Origin: a virus
DNA: 42,019 nt
Virus record (IMG/VR): IMGVR_UViG_3300025889_000248
Span: 1-42,019 of that record
Strand: one strand, 5' to 3'
Every line of letters begins with the position of its first letter. Position 1 is the stretch's first letter. Below, one piece after another: positions 5,209 through 27,769 of this stretch. A model generated the notes under the pieces. The model made no database searches. It was not told the DNA's origin and saw only the letters and a program-made list of their open reading frames with translations. The translations under genes and the position numbers were made by a program.

Positions 5209-5486
5209 TAGCTCATCTTCGTTACTTTACGGCGATTTGAGGCAACCTTACCGCATCCATTCGCGATAACCTCTCCACCAGCCATCATACGACGCACTGG
5301 ACGCTTACGATACTCGTTAGATGGCCCAATAGCGCCACCCATAGCCTTCTTTACAGGCTTTTTCTTGCTGTTTCCCCAGTTTTTAGCACCTACTTTACGA
5401 CACTTTGCGATTGCGCCGCTTGCGTATGCGCTTGGGAACACTTTGTACCTTGCTTTTACCTTTTTGTAGCACGCGTCCTTTGGCAT
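5208..5486 (-). CDS. Small basic Cys/GG-motif protein (92 aa)
   Basis: Starts MPKDACYKKVKARYKVFPSA, continues YASGAIAKCRKVGAKNWG, and ends with two double-glycine segments (KKAMGGAIG and MMAGGEVIANGCGKV). The first 38 residues match a phrase I know from many marine phages. GAGGAAG precedes ATG 5486. The 5' 92 bp of this gene lie inside the 51-aa gene at 5395-5550, in another frame. The function is unknown; the basic charge and the position among head-tail genes suggest a virion or DNA-binding role. Confidence 0.7.
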   Translation of the reverse strand: MPKDACYKKVKARYKVFPSAYASGAIAKCRKVGAKNWGNSKKKPVKKAMGGAIGPSNEYRKRPVRRMMAGGEVIANGCGKVASNRRKVTKMS

Positions 5487-5550
5487 TTTTCTTCCTCTTC
5501 ATAGGCGGCTTGGTCACTTGCTGCGCCATCTGTGAGCGGCCTATAGCCAT
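5395..5550 (-). CDS. Overlapping small basic protein (51 aa)
   Basis: ATG 5550 lies one base after the stop of the upstream gene (TAATATG), so its start is well supported by coupling. The product begins MAIGRSQMAQQVTKPPMKRK and is then almost all K, R, Q, G and V. It ends at TAA 5395. It overlaps the start of the 92-aa gene by 92 bp in another frame. The MAIGRSQM start resembles short marine phage proteins that I remember, but I cannot verify this. Function unknown. Confidence 0.55.
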   Translation of the reverse strand: MAIGRSQMAQQVTKPPMKRKKNAKGRVLQKGKSKVQSVPKRIRKRRNRKVS

Positions 5551-5551
5551 A

Positions 5552-5845
5552 TTAACACTTCCAACGCTTACGCGCCTGCCTCAAGCGACTATTAGGGTCC
5601 TTTGCCGCTTTTGGGAACTTCTTCATTTGACCTGCCGAACGAGCGCAGTAGGATTTACGCCGCTTGGCATCCTTGCTGCCCTTTTTGACCTTACCAGTCA
5701 CAGCAGTTTTTAATTTTGAACCGGGATTAGCTTTTTTGTAGGCTTCCACACCTTTTTTGGTCATACCCGCGCCAGACTTGGTTTTGCGGTAATTACCGCC
5801 TTTACCAGTGGTTTTGCGTATTGGATTCTCTTTTTTACGAGCCAT
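5552..5845 (-). CDS. Small basic protein with SYCARSAGQMKKFPKAAKDP motif (97 aa)
   Basis: The C-terminal third (KRRKSYCARSAGQMKKF, then DPNSRLRQARKRWKC) is a strongly conserved phrase in small marine phage proteins; I remember a DUF6321-like family with similar text. The N-terminal part is K/G/T-rich. I chose ATG 5845 because it overlaps the stop of the structural gene as TGATG, with GAGG 10 nt upstream. A TTG start three codons earlier is also open. Two cysteines near the end could bind metal. Function unknown. Confidence 0.7.
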   Translation of the reverse strand: MARKKENPIRKTTGKGGNYRKTKSGAGMTKKGVEAYKKANPGSKLKTAVTGKVKKGSKDAKRRKSYCARSAGQMKKFPKAAKDPNSRLRQARKRWKC

Positions 5846-19400: not shown

Positions 19401-19668
19401 CTGGTATGTCAGTCGTCGTGGTCGTAGTAGTGTTGTTGTCGTCGTTGTCGGTGCTGTGCCCACCAACTGTACTAACCTGCGTACCCGGCGTGTTCGGGTC
19501 GGTGTCTAACTTAGGGCTGTTCGGATCACTGTAATCGTTTTCATAAACCGTGGGAGGAGGTGCAGGGCTCGGGCTGTCGTCATTGTTACCCGTTTCGCCG
19601 CCGTTACTTTCAAAAGCAGCCATTTCCCAAAAGTTCAAATGGCGCAAAGGCCCAAATAAATGTCTCAT
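16429..19668 (-). CDS. Giant acidic disordered protein with GGVV tail (1079 aa)
   Basis: Very Asp/Thr/Ala-rich, mostly of low complexity. It contains a T7 run (about residue 80), an Ala-rich stretch (about 355-395) and a tandem 18-residue repeat (TGVGATDDDLATDFSAIP and a near copy). A DADNDGQND segment resembles calcium-binding loops, followed by a C-x13-C segment (CEEGFEFDPVEGIC). It ends in two GGVVTxNID repeats and SGMR. Nothing matches an enzyme. The start overlaps the HlyC-like stop (ATGA), so I keep ATG 19668; ATG 19623 is an option. Position directly upstream of terL is unusual for such a large protein. Acidic composition suggests a virion or scaffold-like role, unproven. Confidence 0.7.
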   Translation of the reverse strand: MRHLFGPLRHLNFWEMAAFESNGGETGNNDDSPSPAPPPTVYENDYSDPNSPKLDTDPNTPGTQVSTVGGHSTDNDDNNTTTTTTTDIPEFDTYYDAIDAGYGGQEVSIGGQNVLAETADGYTGSGYTANDSYVDDTFGTGNIYTESTPGASTVNYGNTVDYSDNDNDYSYVDTSNIQGISDASGVDYTPIFVTEGTNLGSTYDEVPTNTELNAVEKNLVSLHGWTDNGDGTVTNKNGGIYDGESGGYLEGYSFEGPDTPDVYTPLDFDDEDYTPTSDELNAAIDAAGGINLTDSDYAADVDYTTTGSGSDYTSTATADDDDLYVAPIPDLDPPAPPSVYYDALGNPYGSQAEAAAADAAAEQAAAQAAANMAAAFDEPTAAEIAAANAAAQREAYDEDEYTVMSQPVSSAVPDPTGSEISYADILSSAGVSDEEIDSMRENILTGDTDYDLEPLDFSFLDETNELLGELGVAPIDVDALTKVGDTGINLEGANKTPSAITDMALGGDDAPITYDGDQALGASGGLDTGRYDYVDDLPDDALDFVNTGVGATDDDLATDFSAIPTGVGATDDDLSTDFSTVSTDGNVELEALINERDALEESLVPNETLAEAGKDLAFQNYLDSLVDTDFTDPSLTGLEAFEQDLYNDEQSDVVPDFLVDKTTSDIEAIEDAADIFQNEGAEALRDYRMDLGMSPVETSVSSDEALARAEADMSGLDILSDQNNQEDTGAATTTDIPTEQEINQAASTETGQSGTDLYLSAMAKVSDPNYDPNDPNSTVRLSDEEQRALYGARGQTPNAAETAYLNDLLSNARHAKDSEIIGADGEPIYKAGDYVTAQSFGDKLGDFAASAFDLFINPLSVFGEDFTIVGQNKKYVQEQLDAYKNGGTFVYDDDGKTVVGIAEANYDADNDGQNDTVVLYDEDGKIQVTGDAIGVDDVKTSNANADGEEFDIDIVDSDRGYTNTEDGVVTTTSTVGVDNDNDDNIPICEEGFEFDPVEGICMPIDEIGDGTGKVKLKPRIPLPVIDDPAPPETSLPKVGGLTIRRPSFNKGGVVTRNIDKFANGGVVTPNIDNFMSGMR
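17932..18033 (-). repeat. Tandem 54-bp repeat inside the acidic giant gene
   Basis: Plus-strand text starting ACTAAAGTC at 17932 is repeated from 17986 with a few substitutions. It encodes two near-identical 18-residue units (TGVGATDDDLATDFSAIP-like). The second copy is slightly shorter. The pair signals recent duplication within a disordered region. Confidence 0.6.
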
Positions 19669-20087
19669 GCTACCTTCCTATGCCACTTCTCATCGCGCTT
19701 ACTGCCATCAGGATATAACCTTAAACCCTCAGCAGTAGCAATCTCAGGGTGATTATCCCACATAAATTGCTGAATGTCCCGTATGAACTTAATCACATCC
19801 CTGCGACCAGCACGGCACTGAAACTTCGGAAAGAACAAAATCAAGTCCTCAGACCAATCGCGCGCAAAAACCTCAGAACCATCCCAAGAATCATCGTCTA
19901 TCTCGCTACGAGTGAAAAATCCCCATGTGCAATAACCAACAACCTCACCGTCAACCCTATGAACAAAACACTTGTCATGCTCAATAGCACGGTAAACAGA
20001 ATTGCGCGTAGCCCAAGAAGGAGTCTTGGCGTAAAAATTGTCGTTCAAAACCAACGACATAACTCTGCCAAGAAGATCGTAGTCCAT
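19665..20087 (-). CDS. HlyC-like lysine-acyltransferase relative (140 aa)
   Basis: The core phrase VVGYCTWGFFT (residues 49-59) followed by SEIDDDSWDGSEVFARDW resembles the HlyC text VAYCSWANLS...AEDWTSGD. RRDVIKFIRDIQ (95-106) fits the HlyC ALYKYMRKK segment, and LRLYPDGSKRDEKWHRK matches IRVDPKTHVGKVSEF. By my hand alignment the HlyC catalytic His falls near Tyr19 and the Asp in WFIDWIAP is replaced, so activity by the classical mechanism is doubtful. It lies between the proline-rich gene and the acidic giant. The assignment is remembered homology; a related function such as protein modification is possible. Confidence 0.6.
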   Translation of the reverse strand: MDYDLLGRVMSLVLNDNFYAKTPSWATRNSVYRAIEHDKCFVHRVDGEVVGYCTWGFFTRSEIDDDSWDGSEVFARDWSEDLILFFPKFQCRAGRRDVIKFIRDIQQFMWDNHPEIATAEGLRLYPDGSKRDEKWHRKVA

Positions 20088-20625: not shown

Positions 20626-20865
20626 TTAATCAATAACCTCCAACAATCCACTCCGCAACATGCTGCCAGCTAAAGCATCACGACTGTGAAAGTAATAATT
20701 ATCACCGCTCCACTCACACATCTCAATCGCAGCACGCCGCATGAAATCACGCTCGTTATGACCAAAACCAATACGATGACGACCCTGCATAACAGGTACA
20801 ACCTCACCAGCACCCTGAGCGTCAAACTCAAAACTCTCGCCGTAATTTAACCTGTATCTAGGCAT
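20626..20865 (-). CDS. Small conserved-looking protein (79 aa)
   Basis: Starts MPRYRLNYGESFEFDAQGAGEVVPVMQGRHRIGFG, then FMRRAAIEMCEWSGDNYYF and SRDALAGSMLRSG. ATG 20865 overlaps the end of the cupin gene by 8 bp, so it is translated with it. The pattern (beta then two helices) is not diagnostic. I do not recognise it. Confidence 0.5.
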   Translation of the reverse strand: MPRYRLNYGESFEFDAQGAGEVVPVMQGRHRIGFGHNERDFMRRAAIEMCEWSGDNYYFHSRDALAGSMLRSGLLEVID

Positions 20866-21430
20866 CAACAGCCCCCACAAATGAATTCGGAAAATGCTCC
20901 TCTAAACGAGCCGCATCACGCCACGTCAAATCACTCTTAACCTCAGCATCTCCATCCCTAACACCATCCAAATGATCAGAACCCATAACAACACCATCGT
21001 AATCATGCGCAACACTGTGAGGCTCAACGCCATTCAACCAACGCTGAATAGACATGAAAACACCACCACGAGGACCAAAAACACCACCGTGCAAATCGTC
21101 AGTCGCAACCTTAATCAAAGCGCCGCGAAAATCATCAGAACCTCGAACCCGCAACAAATCATCGTCGCCAACCCAACGACCAGAATGCGAAAACAAAATG
21201 TCCCCGCCTAAATACATCTCGTAACTCTCAACATTCGGATGAGTGTGCTCAGGAATTATATAATTCGGTGGAACGATAAACAACTCAACCTGAAACGGGC
21301 CCTTGCGATACCAAACAACGCCAGTAACATCCTGAATCTTGTAACTCGTAACAATACCCGGAGGAATGTAACCAAAAACCTTCGCATTAGACGCAAAACC
21401 AAAAGCAAAACGATCAAGCTCTTTAGACAT
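20858..21430 (-). CDS. Cupin-like protein (190 aa)
   Basis: The central phrase LFIVPPNYIIPEHTHPNVESYEMYLGGDILFSHSG has the cupin signature. His62 and His64 in PEHTHP, Glu68/71 in ESYEMY and a second His at 114 (DDLHGGVFGPRGG) would bind a metal in a beta-barrel. The family is diverse (isomerases, dioxygenases, sugar-binding), so I assign only the fold. It is the first gene after a good sigma70 promoter (21455-21483) and thus leads the late operon. I remember similar VPPNYIIPEHTHPNV text in marine phages. Function unknown. Confidence 0.6.
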   Translation of the reverse strand: MSKELDRFAFGFASNAKVFGYIPPGIVTSYKIQDVTGVVWYRKGPFQVELFIVPPNYIIPEHTHPNVESYEMYLGGDILFSHSGRWVGDDDLLRVRGSDDFRGALIKVATDDLHGGVFGPRGGVFMSIQRWLNGVEPHSVAHDYDGVVMGSDHLDGVRDGDAEVKSDLTWRDAARLEEHFPNSFVGAVDA

Positions 21431-21483: not shown

Positions 21484-21671
21484 TGGAATTTTTTGTAAAA
21501 AATTTTTTGACGGCCCATGGGTCCCATACGGACTAAAAAGGTTTTTACTGGTGATTGTAGGTGGGGAACACTGTGTGGGGCTGCTGTCCGATTGTCCGAA
21601 TATAAGGGGGGGTGCACAGGCCCCATATACCCCGATTTCCGAACAATTGTTCGGGTTGCCTAGGGTACCTT
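21484..21671. other. Non-coding gap between late promoter and terminator
   Basis: No gene is seen. The stretch has A/T-rich text next to the late promoter, then G/C tracts and a copy of the CCGAACAATTGTTCGGGTT palindrome at about 21640-21657. Confidence 0.5.
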
Positions 21672-21724: not shown

Positions 21725-21967
21725 TTAAAAGTCTCGATACCTATGCCTAACTCTGTCGCTGTCATTGTCAGAGTATTGGCGCGGCGTATCGTGCCCCTTG
21801 TCACCAAAAACCACGCAATCAGTTTTTGGATCAATTGGAAAACCTGTATCACCATACATTCTATGATCGTGAATACTATGGACGAAATCCGGCTGTCCAA
21901 ATACGCGAACAGCGTTGGTGAATTGTTGCTTTGTTCTGAAGCCCACAAAGTGAATATATCTTTTCAT
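21725..21967 (-). CDS. Small protein downstream of the amidoligase (80 aa)
   Basis: Starts MKRYIHFVGFRTKQQFTNAVRVFG and ends KGHDTPRQYSDNDSDRVRHRYRDF, with HDHRMYGDTGFP in the middle. It is basic and Tyr/His/Asp-rich. The leader carries TCTAGCAA and AGGAAA before ATG 21967. Being the only gene after the amidoligase, it could be its partner or substrate; that is inference. I do not recognise the family. Confidence 0.6.
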   Translation of the reverse strand: MKRYIHFVGFRTKQQFTNAVRVFGQPDFVHSIHDHRMYGDTGFPIDPKTDCVVFGDKGHDTPRQYSDNDSDRVRHRYRDF

Positions 21968-22023: not shown

Positions 22024-23097
22024 TTATCGCGTCAATGTTTCAACGCGGTTGTGCCACCATTCGAACAATTCATCTGACAAGCCCGCCCATATTGACGGGT
22101 TGCCTATGCGGTGCTCTGGCAACAGTGTCGCGCCGTCTGTTGTGGTCTCAAAAGAAAACAAAACGGTGTATGATGTGTGATGCGTGCCGTCACCATAGCG
22201 CGCGCCGTTCGCTTGTTGTGTGTTGGTGACCACGGCGGCGTCACCAACGCGCGCTCTGATTTCAGAGACGGCGGCGCGAACACGTTGCTCTGAGCATCCG
22301 GTTGCATCCATGATTTCTTGCGTGGTTGCGCCACCATCTGAGCGCATCATGGAATATTGAACGCCAACGCGCGCGCCGCGTCTGAATGGCTGTTCGGGTG
22401 TATCGGTAACAATTGTTCGGGTGCCACCCTCAACGCGTGCCGTGTTGGTGTGTTCGACTAGGTTCAACAGGAATTTCACCCAATTGATAATCTTGTCGGC
22501 TTCAACGGTGCCGGACGCTTGGCGGAATTCAATTGTGCCGCGTGACCATGTTTCCAAATTAACGGCGGTGAATTTGCCGAACGTCAATTCGCGGATTGTT
22601 GTGGCGCGCTCAATGCGTGCAAGCGATAGCGGCGCGCAATAGCGGTTGTCGGTGCGTGAGCGCGGGAACATTGTGTTAATTGTCGATTGTTGCCGCGTAT
22701 AGCGGTACATAATATCTTGAACCGCGACAAAATCCATAGGGTCAGCATATGCGCCTGTGATATAGCGGCCAGTTCTATGGCGCTCTAAAATGCTATCGCC
22801 ACAAAAGCGAACGGCGTGCGTGTCGTCATTCAACGGCGCGTTGCCAATGTGAACGTGTAAACCGCACTTTGAATTGACGCGCGCGCCAACGCGGTCCAAC
22901 ACGCGGCAAATTTTCTTGATATAATCGAATGCGAAATCGCACGCGGCCAATGGTGGCAACACGATTTCGGCGTCAACGCTTGGCGTGCCGTCCGGTTTAA
23001 CGTCACAGCCGCGGATTTCGGCGTTGCTTAATGCGCTTTTGATTGCGCTGATGCTAGCGCCGCTTGTTTCGATTTCTATTCCAAAGGTGTAAGTCAT
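22024..23097 (-). CDS. Amidoligase-family protein (COOH-NH2 ligase, 357 aa)
   Basis: An N-terminal FGIEIE motif (5-10) is followed by GCDVKPDGTPSVDAEIVLPP, CGLHVHIG (78-85), and RGTIEFRQASGT (about 186-197). This is the order of Amidoligase_2 proteins, which have a glutamine-synthetase-like fold and join amino acids or peptides to carboxylates. The C-terminal region (about 250-330) has TTQEIMDATGCSEQRVRAAVSEIRARVGD, which looks like a winged-helix DNA-binding segment and is unusual for the family. Start ATG 23097 follows a leader with a hairpin and promoter. Substrate unknown. Confidence 0.8.
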   Translation of the reverse strand: MTYTFGIEIETSGASISAIKSALSNAEIRGCDVKPDGTPSVDAEIVLPPLAACDFAFDYIKKICRVLDRVGARVNSKCGLHVHIGNAPLNDDTHAVRFCGDSILERHRTGRYITGAYADPMDFVAVQDIMYRYTRQQSTINTMFPRSRTDNRYCAPLSLARIERATTIRELTFGKFTAVNLETWSRGTIEFRQASGTVEADKIINWVKFLLNLVEHTNTARVEGGTRTIVTDTPEQPFRRGARVGVQYSMMRSDGGATTQEIMDATGCSEQRVRAAVSEIRARVGDAAVVTNTQQANGARYGDGTHHTSYTVLFSFETTTDGATLLPEHRIGNPSIWAGLSDELFEWWHNRVETLTR

Positions 23098-23124
23098 TGT
23101 TTTTCCTATCTTTTCTAGAGTTAG

Positions 23125-23145
23125 TAGGGCAAAGCTGTCGCCCTA
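23125..23145 (-). other. Leader hairpin of the amidoligase mRNA
   Basis: TAGGGC (23125-23130) pairs with GCCCTA (23140-23145) around a 9-nt loop, between the promoter and the TCTAG element. It would form at the RNA 5' end and could affect stability or translation. Confidence 0.5.
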
Positions 23146-23153
23146 TACCTAGT

Positions 23154-23181
23154 AATATAAGCATATTTTCCCATATGACAA
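23154..23181 (-). promoter_or_regulatory. Promoter of the amidoligase gene
   Basis: Minus strand: TTGTCA (23181-23176), 16 nt, TATATT (23159-23154), a 5-of-6 match at -10. It lies about 60 bp upstream of ATG 23097. A GGGA box occurs in the spacer. Upstream is a GAACAATTGTTCGGGTT palindrome at about 23203-23219. Confidence 0.65.
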
Positions 23182-23295
23182 GGGGTTTTGTGGGATTAAT
23201 TAGAACAATTGTTCGGGTTAGCGTTGGATGCCAACGCGCGGCGCTATTCAATCGGCACAAAAAAACGCGACATTCAGAAGGAATGCGCGCGATCA

Positions 23296-23348
23296 TGTGT
23301 GTATATGTGTGTATATATGTGTGTATATATTTATGTATATATACTATA
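23296..23348. repeat. TG/TA microsatellite
   Basis: The stretch is made of alternating TGTGTATA, TATATGTG and similar units. It is AT-rich, prone to slippage and probably to melting. It directly precedes the CCCGAA run. Such tracts are rare in compact phage genomes. Confidence 0.7.
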
Positions 23349-23402
23349 CCCCGACCCCGAACCCCGAACCCGAAAGCCCGAAGCCCGAAGCCCGAAGCCC
23401 GA
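23349..23402. repeat. CCCGAA heptamer run
   Basis: Text reads CCCGACCCCGAACCCC, then GAACCCGAAAG, then four consecutive CCCGAAG-type units before TTAATTAG. Units vary between CCCGAA, CCCGAAC and CCCGAAG. Similar short runs recur at 24068-24088 and 24150-24175, so this is part of a wider motif family. Confidence 0.7.
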
Positions 23403-23406
23403 TTAA

Positions 23407-23613
23407 TTAGTAATGAGTCCACCCATAGTCATCGAACCTTGACCTATAGTCTGTCCCACTCTCCCGAATCGCGATGTGATCATATCCCGATTTCTTGAGT
23501 CCATCAAACCGAACATATCCTACGACCCATGATTTTGCCTCGTCGTAATTGTCTGACTCGTGCAATGTAATCCGATCAAATTCAGTCTCACACCCTAAAA
23601 CTTGATACTTCAT
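23407..23613 (-). CDS. Small acidic protein (68 aa)
   Basis: Starts MKYQVLGCETEFDRITLHESDNYDEAKSWV and ends RSRFDDYGWTHY. Overlaps the upstream 64-aa gene by ATGA. No recognisable motif; it has one Cys and an acidic, aromatic-rich surface. Paired with its neighbour in a two-gene unit read from the promoter at 23833. Confidence 0.55.
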   Translation of the reverse strand: MKYQVLGCETEFDRITLHESDNYDEAKSWVVGYVRFDGLKKSGYDHIAIRESGTDYRSRFDDYGWTHY

Positions 23614-23804
23614 GCCGCTTCCTCCTGCTCTAATACTTCCATAGCGTGCTCAAGTGCCTCTTGCTCGCTGTCGATTCCGTAACAAGTGAAGCAATGGTAA
23701 TCGACCCACTGCCCTCCGATTGGCGTTTGCAAGTTAAAGTTGCTGGTTCCGTTCCACTCGATACGCAAGTGCTGCTCGTTGTGCTCTACTTCCCAATACT
23801 TCAT
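23610..23804 (-). CDS. Small acidic protein (64 aa)
   Basis: Starts MKYWEVEHNEQHLRIEWNGTSNFNL and ends with a Glu-rich helix (SEQEALEHAMEVLEQEEAA). The beta-then-helix layout resembles small DUF-type phage proteins. AGAGAGGAAAG precedes ATG 23804. It shares its MKY start with the next gene (23407-23613), suggesting the two may be diverged duplicates (inference). Confidence 0.55.
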   Translation of the reverse strand: MKYWEVEHNEQHLRIEWNGTSNFNLQTPIGGQWVDYHCFTCYGIDSEQEALEHAMEVLEQEEAA

Positions 23805-23832
23805 TTTCTTTCCTCTCTACTAGAATAATCCC

Positions 23833-23861
23833 ACACTATCCCACACTGTATAGTATGTCAA
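23833..23861 (-). promoter_or_regulatory. Promoter of the 64-aa and 68-aa genes
   Basis: Minus strand: perfect -35 TTGACA (23861-23856), 17-nt spacer, TAGTGT (23838-23833). AGTGTGGGAT occurs twice around the -10, followed by TTATTCTAGTAG and a GAGAGG site. The doubled AGTGTGGGAT could be an operator. Confidence 0.6.
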
Positions 23862-24241
23862 CAGGAAAAATCGCACCGGGTTGAATTTTCTTCCGGGCGC
23901 GATTCGTGAACAATTGTTCGGGTTACGCTGCCGGGCAAAACCACTGGCGCACAAAACACTGCTGTAGGTTACGCTGCCGGGTAACACCACTGGATACAAT
24001 AACACTGCTGTAGGTTATCCGACGTAGTAACCCGAACAATTACTCGGGTTGACCCCGACGCTGGCGAATCCCGAACCCCGAACCCCGAATATTGGTGATT
24101 TATCTGAGAGGCGCTGAGAGGCCCGTAGAATAACCCGAACAATTTTCAGCACCCCGAACCCGAAAAAACCCGAATCGGCGCTGAGGGGGGCGTTTCTGTG
24201 GCTCTACGACCCCGCCAGCCGCCCCGCATGGAGCGCAGGCG
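23862..24241. other. Non-coding region downstream of terS
   Basis: No gene of convincing length is seen on either strand. The region holds a palindrome copy (about 23909), the 46-bp tandem repeat, several CCCGAA/TTCGGG copies and a G/C-rich 3' part before the terS stop. It may carry RNA signals or a DNA site. Confidence 0.6.
23921..24012. repeat. 46-bp tandem direct repeat
   Basis: Two adjacent 46-bp units, 23921-23966 and 23967-24012. Both begin GGTTACGCTGCCGGG and end AACACTGCTGTA-type text; they differ at about 7 positions. Each includes GCCGGG and CCACTGG. A third partial start (GGTTATCCG) follows. Not a CRISPR: only two units and no spacer. Confidence 0.8.
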
Positions 24242-24820
24242 CTATTCGTCGGCTTCGCCGCTATAATCCGTTATAGGGATATGTTCGGGTTTTGTGGGAT
24301 TTTGTTCAGGTGTTACGTCAATCATTCGATCTTTAGCACGCTGCATGAATTCTTGGAGTTGTTCAACGATTTGATCACGCGACAGGTTATCGACTGTTTC
24401 GTGCGTTACATGGCTACGAGCGACCATTAGGCCCGTCACTTTCAGGCGCAGTTCTTCTGCTTTGATTGCTGCACCGAAGTTCCCTGCTTCCCATGCTTCG
24501 TCCCGAAGTCTCTGCATATCCCGAACAGATTTCGTTATTGTGACCCCGTATTTGCTTTCGAGTTCTTGGCGCATTTCTTCCATGCGTTCTTTGACGCGCG
24601 GATTGTTTAGAAGCTGCACTGCTGATACGTTCGGGTTTTTGTATCCTGCTGCTCTGGCTGCTGCGGTCTGCGTCATATCTTTATGAATGTAGTTATCCAG
24701 AAACTTCTGCTGCGGTGGCGTTATTCGCTTTCCGCCTTTTTCGATTTGCTCCCCGACTTTCGGCACAACACTTTCCCCGCTTGATTTCCTGCCACACTCT
24801 ACCGCGCGGCTTCGCCCCAT
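24242..24820 (-). CDS. terS: Terminase small subunit
   Basis: The HTH-containing core GKRITPPQQKFLDNYIHKDMTQTAAARAAGY, then PNVSAVQLLNNPRVKERMEEMRQEL, is the pattern of Terminase_2 small subunits. The rest is helical, with a KVTGLMVARSHVTHETVDNL stretch and an acidic tail. I annotate from ATG 24820; an upstream TTG (24868) and a downstream GTG (24766) are alternative starts. It recognises the packaging site and feeds DNA to TerL. It is placed outside the late operon, beside the early repeat array. Confidence 0.85.
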   Translation of the reverse strand: MGRSRAVECGRKSSGESVVPKVGEQIEKGGKRITPPQQKFLDNYIHKDMTQTAAARAAGYKNPNVSAVQLLNNPRVKERMEEMRQELESKYGVTITKSVRDMQRLRDEAWEAGNFGAAIKAEELRLKVTGLMVARSHVTHETVDNLSRDQIVEQLQEFMQRAKDRMIDVTPEQNPTKPEHIPITDYSGEADE

Positions 24821-24876
24821 GCAAGCCCAATAGTTCCCATACTTCACATCAACATCATCAATCAACAATTACATCA

Positions 24877-24912
24877 GGGGGGGTAAGGTATATACCCCCC
24901 CCTATAGGGGGG
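24877..24912. repeat. G/C palindrome beside terS
   Basis: Seven G at 24877-24883, then TAAGGTATATA, eight C at 24895-24902, TATA, and six G at 24907-24912. The G and C runs can pair two ways, giving a hairpin or a cruciform. It ends where the TTGACGTA repeats begin. Confidence 0.7.
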
Positions 24913-25075
24913 TGACGTAGTTGACGTAAAATAACTCTTTGATTTTATTAAACTATTTACGTCAAAACGGTTTTTTGACGTAGTTGACGTAAACTAATAA
25001 ACCATTGGTTTTGTTTACAATTCTACGTTACGTCAACTACGTCAACTTTTGACGTGAATTTTTCTGACGTAAATA
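24913..25075. repeat. TTGACGTA repeat array (candidate operator or origin iterons)
   Basis: At least nine copies of TTGACGTA or close variants lie in direct and inverted orientation. Examples are TGACGTAGTTGACGTAAA at 24913-24930 and 24976-24993, and its complement at 25028-25045. Single copies sit at 24956-24967, 25047-25058 and 25064-25073. The spacer sequence is AT-rich. The core equals the -35 box used by many phage promoters. Confidence 0.75.
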
Positions 25076-25077
25076 AT
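25049..25077 (+). promoter_or_regulatory. Possible upstream tandem promoter
   Basis: TTGACG (25049-25054), 17 nt, AATAAT (25072-25077), a 5-of-6 match at -10. It lies within the repeat array and would read into the 141-aa gene ahead of the main promoter. Confidence 0.35.
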
Positions 25078-25116
25078 GTAATGAAATCAACGCATAATTT
25101 TTTTTACCTTTTATGC

Positions 25117-25145
25117 TTGACGTGCCTATATGGCATGGGTATATA
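25117..25145 (+). promoter_or_regulatory. Main early promoter of the plus-strand cluster
   Basis: TTGACG (25117-25122), 17-nt spacer, TATATA (25140-25145). It is followed by TGGGACATCTAGTAAAACGG (25146-25165), then AG, and ATG 25176. The best promoter in the window and the template for the shared leader described in the findings. Confidence 0.8.
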
Positions 25146-25175
25146 TGGGACATCTAGTAAAACGGAGTATATGAC

Positions 25176-25601
25176 ATGACCAACGAAAACATCAGAACCC
25201 GCATCTTGCGCGACTTAGATGGTGACTTAACCACGGACAGCAACCACGCGACACGCCGTATGTTTCGCTGCTGGTTGGATGGTTCTTATTTGGGCGAGGA
25301 TCACTACCGCTCTAATGTAGAATTCATCAAGGGTAATAGCCATGACCGCAAAGCCATGCGGCGTTTTATTATTAGTGAGTTCGTGAAGTACATTGCACAC
25401 GATGCACATTGTTCAGCAAGTTACGCGCAAAAAGTTATCGTTGAGCGGTTCAGCAAGGACTATCTGAATATGCTAAACGATGTCTTGATTGATGAGGCGA
25501 TTGAGTTTGGCGCGGAGCATAGTTCGCAGTCTATGGATGATCTGCGAGCTTTGGGCGTTGTCAAAGTTATTTTTACTCCTGTTAATACGGGGGCCGCGTG
25601 A
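25176..25601 (+). CDS. First gene of the early plus cluster, helical (141 aa)
   Basis: Starts MTNENIRTRILRDLDGDLTTDS. Central helix-rich text includes DRKAMRRFIISEFVKYIAHDAH and YAQKVIVERFSKDYLNMLNDVLIDEAIEFG. It lies 30 bp after the early promoter with GGAG upstream of ATG. No clear domain is seen. As the first early gene it may act against the host or as a regulator (inference). Confidence 0.6.
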   Translation: MTNENIRTRILRDLDGDLTTDSNHATRRMFRCWLDGSYLGEDHYRSNVEFIKGNSHDRKAMRRFIISEFVKYIAHDAHCSASYAQKVIVERFSKDYLNMLNDVLIDEAIEFGAEHSSQSMDDLRALGVVKVIFTPVNTGAA

Positions 25602-25828
25602 TGCTGAAGGATAGACGCAAGCAATGGCAGAAAGACTGCATCAACTATAGCTGGTCCCGTTGTGGCACTGTTGCGACTGAGCGTGGTTATAGCACTGATC
25701 TACGTTTAAAGCGCGTTAATGCGATGCTTGAGGCTGACGATCACCAAGCCTCATTCACTTGGTACAATGAGGAGCTTTCGGCGCGTCACGTTGATCGCCC
25801 CGCGTCTGAATATAAGGAGGCTGCATGA
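25601..25828 (+). CDS. Small protein of the early cluster (75 aa)
   Basis: Starts MLKDRRKQWQKDCINYSWSRCGT and ends RHVDRPASEYKEAA. ATG 25601 overlaps the previous stop (TGATG). The KRxKQWQKDCINYSWSRCG segment and LRLKRVNAMLEADDHQA suggest a helical fold. Not recognised. Confidence 0.5.
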   Translation: MLKDRRKQWQKDCINYSWSRCGTVATERGYSTDLRLKRVNAMLEADDHQASFTWYNEELSARHVDRPASEYKEAA

Positions 25829-26229
25829 TGCTTTACATGGCATATGGAATGAACACGAACAGGGACGCGATGGCAAATCGCTGCCCGAAGGCCAAACCAT
25901 TGGGCGGGTTTTACCTGCCCGACACGCGGCTAGTCTTTCGAGGCGTTGCTGATATTGTGCCCGATCCAGATTATATCTGCCCCGTTGTTTTGTGGGAGAT
26001 CACGCACGATTGTTTGCGTGCTCTTGACAGGTTGGAGGGTTATCCGACTTTATACAATCGGCGCAAAGTTAACTGTGGCTGGCTTGTATATGAGATTAAT
26101 GACAAAACCCGAACAAGTCCCCCGACTGGTGGGTATTACAAGATGATCGAGGACGGCTACAAAGAGTTCGGGTTAGACGACTATTGTTTGCGCCGTGCTT
26201 TATCCGAAGCTGAGGAGGTTGCGGCATGA
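25828..26229 (+). CDS. Gamma-glutamylcyclotransferase-like protein (AIG2/GGCT fold, 133 aa)
   Basis: N-terminal YMAYGMNTN (3-11) is the GGCT substrate-loop signature. It is followed by FRGVADIVP, VVLWEITHDCLRALDRLEGYP with the expected catalytic Glu70 in LDRLEG, and a C-terminal GYYKMIEDGYKEFGLD. Family members cyclise gamma-glutamyl peptides to release 5-oxoproline and a free amine. In published comparative work on amidoligases, GGCT-like enzymes are among the genomic partners of the amidoligase family. Start: ATG 25828, with GGAGG 8 nt upstream; ATG 25825 is adjacent. Confidence 0.8.
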   Translation: MLYMAYGMNTNRDAMANRCPKAKPLGGFYLPDTRLVFRGVADIVPDPDYICPVVLWEITHDCLRALDRLEGYPTLYNRRKVNCGWLVYEINDKTRTSPPTGGYYKMIEDGYKEFGLDDYCLRRALSEAEEVAA

Positions 26230-27112: not shown

Positions 27113-27140
27113 TGCAACCCGAACAAGTGTGCGATATGTA
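27112..27140 (+). promoter_or_regulatory. Promoter of the small RNA
   Basis: TTGCAA (27112-27117), exactly 17 nt, TATGTA (27135-27140). The spacer contains CCCGAACAA. It directly follows the cluster terminator, so its transcript begins about 27147. Confidence 0.6.
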
Positions 27141-27146
27141 TAAGGG

Positions 27147-27235
27147 GCAGGTATCGCTGAGTCTGTGCGTATTCTTGGCGATAAACTCCCCCCCCGCCCG
27201 GCTAGGATTCGCACTGCAACGGCGGGGGTTTTTTT
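27147..27235 (+). ncRNA. Candidate small RNA (about 89 nt, two hairpins)
   Basis: It starts after the 27112-27140 promoter. A first stem pairs TATCGC (27152-27157) with GCGATA (27178-27183). The second is the terminator stem CCCCCGCC (27191-27198) with GGCGGGGG (27221-27228), then T7. No ribosome site with a coding frame longer than a few codons is seen. The loop of the second hairpin holds CGGCTAGGATTCGCACTGCA. Likely an independent phage small RNA. Confidence 0.55.
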
Positions 27236-27308
27236 GTGCGTTCTATGACAAAACGGATTTAAATCCCGATTATAATCCGCCCCGAACATAATTTTTCTTA
27301 TTTAACTA

Positions 27309-27367: not shown

Positions 27368-27769
27368 ATGGGATTAGATATGTATCTGACGGGCGACAAG
27401 TACACGCCTTCTTTTGGTGACAACAAGCGCGAGGTTGTTGATGGCTATGAGGTTGAGGGCTTGCGTCTAAAGCTGGCTTACTGGCGTAAGCACTGGGCTT
27501 TGCACAATTACATTGAGGATCATTACGACTCCAACGACGACCACAGGTTTTATCTTGAGAGTGATGACTTGCGGGACATTGCCAACGCTGTTGAGGGTGG
27601 CAAGTTGGTTGACCCGAATGATCTTGATGAGATGCCGAGCTACCGCAGCGTTTATGCTCATTGGCGCGAACCCGAACAAGTTCGTGAAACTGTCAATGCG
27701 CTGCGCAAAGCTGCTGACTGGGTTGATGGCGGGGATTGGCGTTCTGTTGAATATGTAGGGAGTTGGTAG
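27368..27769 (+). CDS. GLDMYL-type phage protein (133 aa)
   Basis: Begins MGLDMYLTGDKYTP and contains LAYWRKHWALHNYIEDHYDS, FYLESDDLRDIANAV, and ends WRSVEYVGSW. The MGLDMYL...YWRK...HNY pattern is a widespread phage protein family of unknown function; its conserved YWRK and W-containing ends are kept here. It is the first gene after the 27309 promoter. Confidence 0.65.
   Translation: MGLDMYLTGDKYTPSFGDNKREVVDGYEVEGLRLKLAYWRKHWALHNYIEDHYDSNDDHRFYLESDDLRDIANAVEGGKLVDPNDLDEMPSYRSVYAHWREPEQVRETVNALRKAADWVDGGDWRSVEYVGSW

Follow-up and report, generated by a model that had tools for sequence, protein, structure and literature searches.

An amidoligase paired with a gamma-glutamyl cyclotransferase in a tailed-phage lineage, and a dispersed DNA motif that accompanies the pair

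We analyzed a 42,019-nucleotide stretch of marine viral DNA (hereafter the window; IMG/VR virus record IMGVR_UViG_3300025889_000248, positions 1 to 42,019), whose packaging, capsid, portal, and replication genes identify the source as a tailed phage. The window encodes an amidoligase (PF12224, glutamine-synthetase-like fold) with a fused, predicted C-terminal winged helix (22024..23097, minus strand, 357 aa) and a gamma-glutamyl cyclotransferase (GGCT; 25825..26229, plus strand), and these two enzymes form a conserved module rather than a coincidence. Phages of this lineage that carry the module also carry a dispersed DNA motif, AACCCGAACAA(TTGTTCGGGTT), and, of the DNA-binding candidates checked, the ligase alone follows that motif. 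We propose, with a probability of about 45%, that the two enzymes make and unmake a product and that the ligase also binds DNA sequence-specifically at the motif.

The two enzymes and their pairing

The ligase matched the Pfam profile PF12224 (Amidoligase_2; E=3.9e-20, 73.2 bits against a cut-off of 22) and PHROG 2443, “amidoligase enzyme” (E=7.6e-20), and PF12224 was likewise matched by 52 of 52 homologues. An amidoligase-like protein had been predicted here from the motifs FGIEIE, CGLHVHIG, and RGTIEFRQASGT, all of which were confirmed. In the AlphaFold2 model (pLDDT 91), the catalytic domain occupies residues 1-222 (22432..23097, minus strand), and Foldseek matched the model to YbdK and glutamine synthetase (E down to 2.4e-6) and, more weakly, to the Pup ligase PafA. 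These superpositions are partial, at ~12% identity and with a low TM (~0.35) because the window ligase adds the C-terminal domain, while the fold and the position of acidic, His, and Arg residues are alike. D36, E44, G79, H81, H83, E190, and R192 are invariant among 48 homologues, and E8 and E10 are near-invariant, the acidic, His, and Arg residues among them being the predicted catalytic ones. Elsewhere, a phage amidoligase is fused to pentapeptide repeats (L320:3725-5248), with a GGCT gene 344 bp downstream.

The GGCT open reading frame (ORF) encodes 134 aa from an ATG at 25825 or 25828, the latter being the start used when a GGCT-like protein was originally predicted (25828-26229). That assignment agrees with matches to PF06094 (E=5e-7, 30.7 bits; cut-off 22.8) and to PHROG 2520, “gamma-glutamyl cyclotransferase” (E=7e-24), and with an AlphaFold2 model (pLDDT 94) whose structural match was human GGCT (E=6e-9, TM 0.76). 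Glu71 is invariant in 40 GGCT sequences and aligns with catalytic Glu98 of the human enzyme, and Y7, G8, and N10 of the YGxN substrate loop (YGMN in the phage protein) are conserved. Human GGCT, human GGACT, and bacterial BtrG are cyclotransferases that release 5-oxoproline, and the phage protein shares their GGCT fold in a short form. Because catalytic residues are kept across 40-52 homologues, both enzymes look catalytically active. Neither gene was placed in another family by the profile and structure searches, and the frames of both are intact at 56-100% identity on many contigs, which therefore excludes a chance ORF.

In the window, the pair lies on opposite strands with the terminase small-subunit gene, terS, between them, 2.7 kb apart where ~3 kb had been estimated. 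The original prediction had linked the amidoligase functionally to a GGCT-like partner and offered co-occurrence as a check, and the association proved better than chance. GGCT was found in 53 of 80 loci around diverse IMG/VR amidoligases, mostly on the same strand and overlapping or tens to hundreds of bases off, while control loci anchored on related terminases (80 loci, 782 kb) contained an amidoligase or GGCT in 0 of 80 cases. The count was 23 of 36 for amidoligase loci flanked by 4 kb in either direction and 11 of 20 for amidoligase clusters at 50% identity. Among 26 long records of the window TerL family or lineage, 11 carried both genes, 12 neither, and three only one; in these three, the expected place of the absent partner falls beyond the contig end, and Fisher's exact test on the remaining 23 records gave ~7e-7 (calculated by hand and uncorrected for phylogeny). 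Within the lineage the two genes remain linked as their order and strand vary, from the split on opposite strands seen in the window to same-strand arrangements 0.3-0.6 kb (L040-L048) or 0.9-1.5 kb (L098-L118) apart, so that an adjacent same-strand operon exists in members such as L040-L048 and not in the window. Together with the family assignments, this co-occurrence leaves us highly confident that the two enzymes are functionally linked.

The winged helix and the dispersed motif

A winged-helix-like segment at the C-terminus of the ligase had also been predicted, and it is supported by the AlphaFold2 model, which gives the C-terminal 120 residues as helices 243-252, 259-266, and 270-284 with wing strands, and by weak matches to DUF3489. 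The modelled domain (~residues 240-330; 22108..22380, minus strand) is weakly DUF3489-like, that profile being matched by 28 of 52 homologues and by the window protein below cut-off (20.9 vs 29.5). In 88% of 990 lineage pairs, similarity was greater in the winged helix than in the catalytic domain (mean identity 0.58 vs 0.47), so the segment is not a tail in decay and presumably has a conserved target. Residue 279 of the predicted recognition helix (270-284) is Glu in the window, and 114 of 117 ligases have Glu or Asp at this position. A similar winged helix occurs in few of the distant amidoligase loci examined, namely L063, where the DUF3489 domain scores above the Pfam cut-off and a GGCT gene is adjacent, and L558 and L596, whose amidoligases have a related winged helix; both lie on long contigs from a single Defluviicoccus metagenome-assembled genome (MAG) and may be prophages. 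Separately, a degenerate copy of the amidoligase C-terminal domain with three stops adjoins the intact gene in G008 (the record of L165; 31610-31972), with a similar fragment in L537, which suggests that catalytic domains are replaced through recombination at the conserved C-terminus.

With motif words and thresholds that were picked after inspecting the data, AACCCGAACAA with at most one mismatch occurs at 22 sites in the window where 0.7 would be expected, and CCCGAACA likewise at 22 sites, with 1.1 expected. In full, the motif reads AACCCGAACAATTGTTCGGGTT, a perfect palindrome, but half-sites predominate and conservation of the second half is weak. Neighbouring sites are frequently spaced 85-110 bp, and eight of the 22 are intergenic where intergenic sequence makes up only 8-13%. 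The motif scan placed a cluster 3' of terS (23915..24291, with sites at 23915, 24031, 24134, and 24282), one site 113 bp upstream of the amidoligase start (23210..23219, minus strand), a near-complete palindrome, CCGAACAATTGTTCGGGTT, at 21638..21657, two sites within the amidoligase gene (22391..22421, minus strand), one within the GGCT gene (26106..26116, plus strand), and two intergenic sites upstream of gene 27368-27769 (27116..27288, plus strand).

No 8-mer family in the lineage is more over-represented than this motif, which stands at background level in module-less relatives and in other amidoligase lineages. Over whole records, all 14 other lineage members had it, two of 12 controls had a single site each, and five other amidoligase phages had none. 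At least two sites lie within 3.5 kb in 171 of 173 distinct module-bearing terS loci (those with an amidoligase or GGCT on the locus), at a median of 1.3 per kb.

Locus L459, a natural relative without the module, has kept terS and the neighbouring genes and has neither enzyme nor any remnant of them. It has no motif site in the 5.7 kb around terS and one inside the terS gene itself, while 3-9 sites each were counted in 29 sibling loci whose TerS is at least 93% identical, and L272, whose TerS is 98% identical to that of L459, has eight flanking sites. The loss is specific to the dispersed motif because CCCGATC/CCCGACC arrays remain there. Where the siblings carry GGCT, L459 has a gene (5419-5835, minus strand) for a 138-aa protein with HxT-like motifs and a weak tRNA-ligase phosphodiesterase match, possibly a 2H phosphoesterase-like product.

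Several candidate readers of the motif fare poorly. TerS as binder, or the motif as a plain pac site, is disfavoured since L459 keeps TerS and has no flanking sites. Gene 28032 is absent from the motif-rich G002 and present in L459, the helix-turn-helix (HTH) gene 29836 is absent from the motif-positive, near-complete G002, G004, G005, and G006, and gene 25176 is absent from the motif-positive G002 and G006, all of which disfavours each as binder. Stoperators of cluster A mycobacteriophages, dispersed asymmetric sites bound by a dedicated lysogeny repressor, resemble the window motif in comprising ~20 dispersed asymmetric sites, some inside genes. However, the candidate binder here is an enzyme, and a stoperator-type lysogeny system is weakened by the absence of a tyrosine integrase from 15 records, in a search that did not extend to serine integrases or repressors. 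Presence in all motif-positive genomes of sufficient completeness, combined with absence from L459, is a pattern shown by the amidoligase and GGCT alone. Because only the ligase of the two has a DNA-binding-like domain, it is the candidate reader. Two module-positive loci lack CCCGAACA and carry variants instead, ACCGAACA/AGCGAACA in L527 and TCGAACAA in L501, and in both the recognition-helix Glu279 is replaced, a covariation that is suggestive only.

Proposed function and its alternatives

In the mechanism that we propose, the amidoligase would use ATP to join a carboxylate, most likely the gamma-carboxyl of glutamate, to an amine, acting on a small molecule, peptide, or protein, and the GGCT-fold enzyme would break gamma-glutamyl amides by cyclizing the glutamyl part to 5-oxoproline. 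The winged helix of the ligase would recognize AACCCGAACAA(TTGTTCGGGTT) on the phage genome, a step to which we give roughly even odds, and ligase activity may then be coupled to gene control, genome occupancy, or DNA-bound proteins. A more specific version would provide a writer and eraser that switch phage chromatin or transcription. With the winged helix parking the amidoligase at ~20 motif sites on the genome, proteins bound to the DNA (or modified DNA) would receive glutamyl or peptide groups there, and the GGCT encoded on the opposite strand would take them off; we regard this version as quite doubtful.

Several observations weigh against a DNA-reading ligase. Half-sites predominate, and 14 of the 22 window sites fall within genes, unlike classical operators. 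The sole independent module loss is one clade (L459, and L278 with the same TerS) represented on a 9.8-kb contig, so that the real binder could lie elsewhere in an L459-type genome, and shared phylogeny confounds the correlations at the level of the lineage. Part of the exclusion of candidate binders came from tblastn, which diverged copies may escape. As for residue 279, it is Leu in L085, where CCC sites are nonetheless kept, and L501 and L527 have diverged as a whole. Finally, the motif is absent at the three other loci with winged-helix amidoligases (L063, L558, and L596). The L063 locus has strongly repeated words of its own, AGCAAAGC/AAGCAGGC (21-22 copies vs <1 expected), perhaps another dispersed motif accompanying such a ligase.

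Among the alternatives, the motif may be bound by another factor, either a phage regulator or a host protein, and track the module through shared ancestry alone. A lineage-specific correlation is expected of any lineage-specific regulator, only a single independent loss of the module has been seen, there are several small HTH genes, and the GAAC-N4-GTTC form of the motif resembles Gram-positive LexA boxes. We nonetheless hold this account to be somewhat unlikely, as the motif was lost where TerS is 98-100% kept, the HTH candidates 28032 and 29836 as well as TerS fail on presence and absence, the integrase result makes a lysogeny switch less likely, and a second half-site as weakly conserved as this one speaks against it too.

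The pair could instead serve small-molecule metabolism, making and recycling a gamma-glutamyl metabolite (glutathione-like or nitrogen-scavenging), with the winged helix serving structure or oligomerization and the motif unrelated. The nearest solved folds do include human GGCT and YbdK, the latter deposited as a predicted glutathione synthase, and Phage-ZRK32 has an amidoligase, GGCT, glutathione synthase, and glutamine amidotransferase together (PMC10945688). However, the window proteins searched included no recognizable glutathione synthase or glutamine amidotransferase, conservation of the ligase is higher in its winged helix than in its catalytic domain, and motif and module vanish together in L459, which renders a purely metabolic role unlikely in our view.

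Modification of the host wall or surface (e.g., amidated peptidoglycan stem peptides), as a block to superinfection or an aid to infection, is more doubtful still. A suggestion of this kind by Iyer et al. 2009 for the phiEco32 amidoligase and glutamine amidotransferase, as quoted in PMC10580990, rests on a different gene set; an amidotransferase or ATP-grasp partner was not seen here, and a DNA-binding domain is ill-suited to an envelope enzyme. Mere cohabitation of two unrelated accessory genes would fit the distance and opposite strands in the window, the 13 of 36 well-flanked distant amidoligase loci without GGCT, and the Porphyromonas phage examined, whose ligase has no GGCT, but it is hardly credible, as the two genes are strongly associated across several unrelated lineages, which have recruited two subtypes of cyclotransferase (YGSN/YGMN-type in the window lineage and Heliusvirales, GGACT-type in Bacillus and Arthrobacter phages).

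Lineage, neighbouring sequences, and known systems

The window TerL and portal proteins are nearest to those of the pelagiphages HTVC027P and HTVC023P and of phage DSL-LC04 (50-60% identity), and the lineage appears to be uncultured because its terS had no match among 50,697 phage records. One 64% identical winged-helix amidoligase (L551, WTIQ01000065.1) comes from a 6.4-kb contig that also has phage-like structural genes and was binned in a Rhodobacteraceae MAG, a weak hint and too little for naming a host. In G003 (the 56-kb record of L121), the GGCT gene and its upstream neighbour occur at both ends, perhaps as a terminal repeat or duplication.

As context for the pair, terS spans 24242..24868 (minus strand), with homologues that begin at MPKVGE, probably corresponding to a GTG at 24766. 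A gene of unassigned function (25176..25601, plus strand) heads the rightward operon with GGCT and is a frequent, not universal, companion. The 80-aa ORF at 21725..21967 (minus strand), described in the original prediction as a small partner gene downstream of the amidoligase, does exist, but it recurs in about six of >100 related loci and at differing positions, and we reject it as a peptide substrate or conserved partner because it is sporadic. Also downstream of the amidoligase, and seen in the closest relatives only, is a cupin-like protein (20858-21430, minus strand) with weak PCO_ADO and DMSP_lyase matches; an acyltransferase-like protein (19665-20087, minus strand) with weak HlyC and GNAT matches lies beside structural genes. 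CCCGATC/CCCGACC arrays adjoin terS across the lineage, at most related terS loci, and short CCCGAACCCCGAACC arrays lie at 23357-23400 and 24071-24160; the arrays near terS are distinct from the dispersed motif and possibly a pac-like site. The intergenic stretch that separates the divergent terS and rightward GGCT operon holds repeated TTGACGTA/GACGTAGTTGACGTAAA units (24880-25110), which look like a second regulatory element.

Phage amidoligase-GGCT pairs were already known from Arthrobacter, Bacillus, LUZ24-like, and Heliusvirales phages. Arthrobacter cluster AL phages have the pair (PMC5513430), and the LUZ24-like phage UFV-P2 has an amidoligase, an amidotransferase, an ATP-grasp protein, and AIG2 (PMC3890496). 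We also found annotated pairs in the Heliusvirales records PV036436/PV036453 and in Bacillus 031MP phages. Gene pairs of PF12224 amidoligases with AIG2/GGCT in phages were reportedly described by Iyer et al. in 2009, and the Pfam text of PF12224 is reported to mention the association. The window pair, with the same two families conserved together and the same catalytic signatures, is a variant of this known phage pair and not a canonical operon. Known pairs are usually adjacent and on the same strand, whereas three features are new here: the split of the pair to opposite strands of terS in the window sublineage, the ligase with its confidently modelled winged helix, and the motif that tracks the module. 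The biotin ligase-repressor BirA likewise combines a ligase with a winged helix that has genomic target sites, yet this is analogy and not homology, as BirA has another ligase fold, an N-terminal rather than C-terminal winged helix, and few sites rather than ~20.

Phage amidoligase/GGCT pairs have been annotated since ~2009, and to our knowledge neither a substrate nor a site of action is known for them; likewise, we know of no phage precedent for a DNA-addressed amide ligase. If the proposed reading is true, this lineage would encode an amide ligase that depends on ATP and is directed to particular DNA sites. A lineage with a winged-helix ligase, a candidate target for it, and a natural relative in which module and motif are jointly lost offers a direct handle on the search for the substrate.

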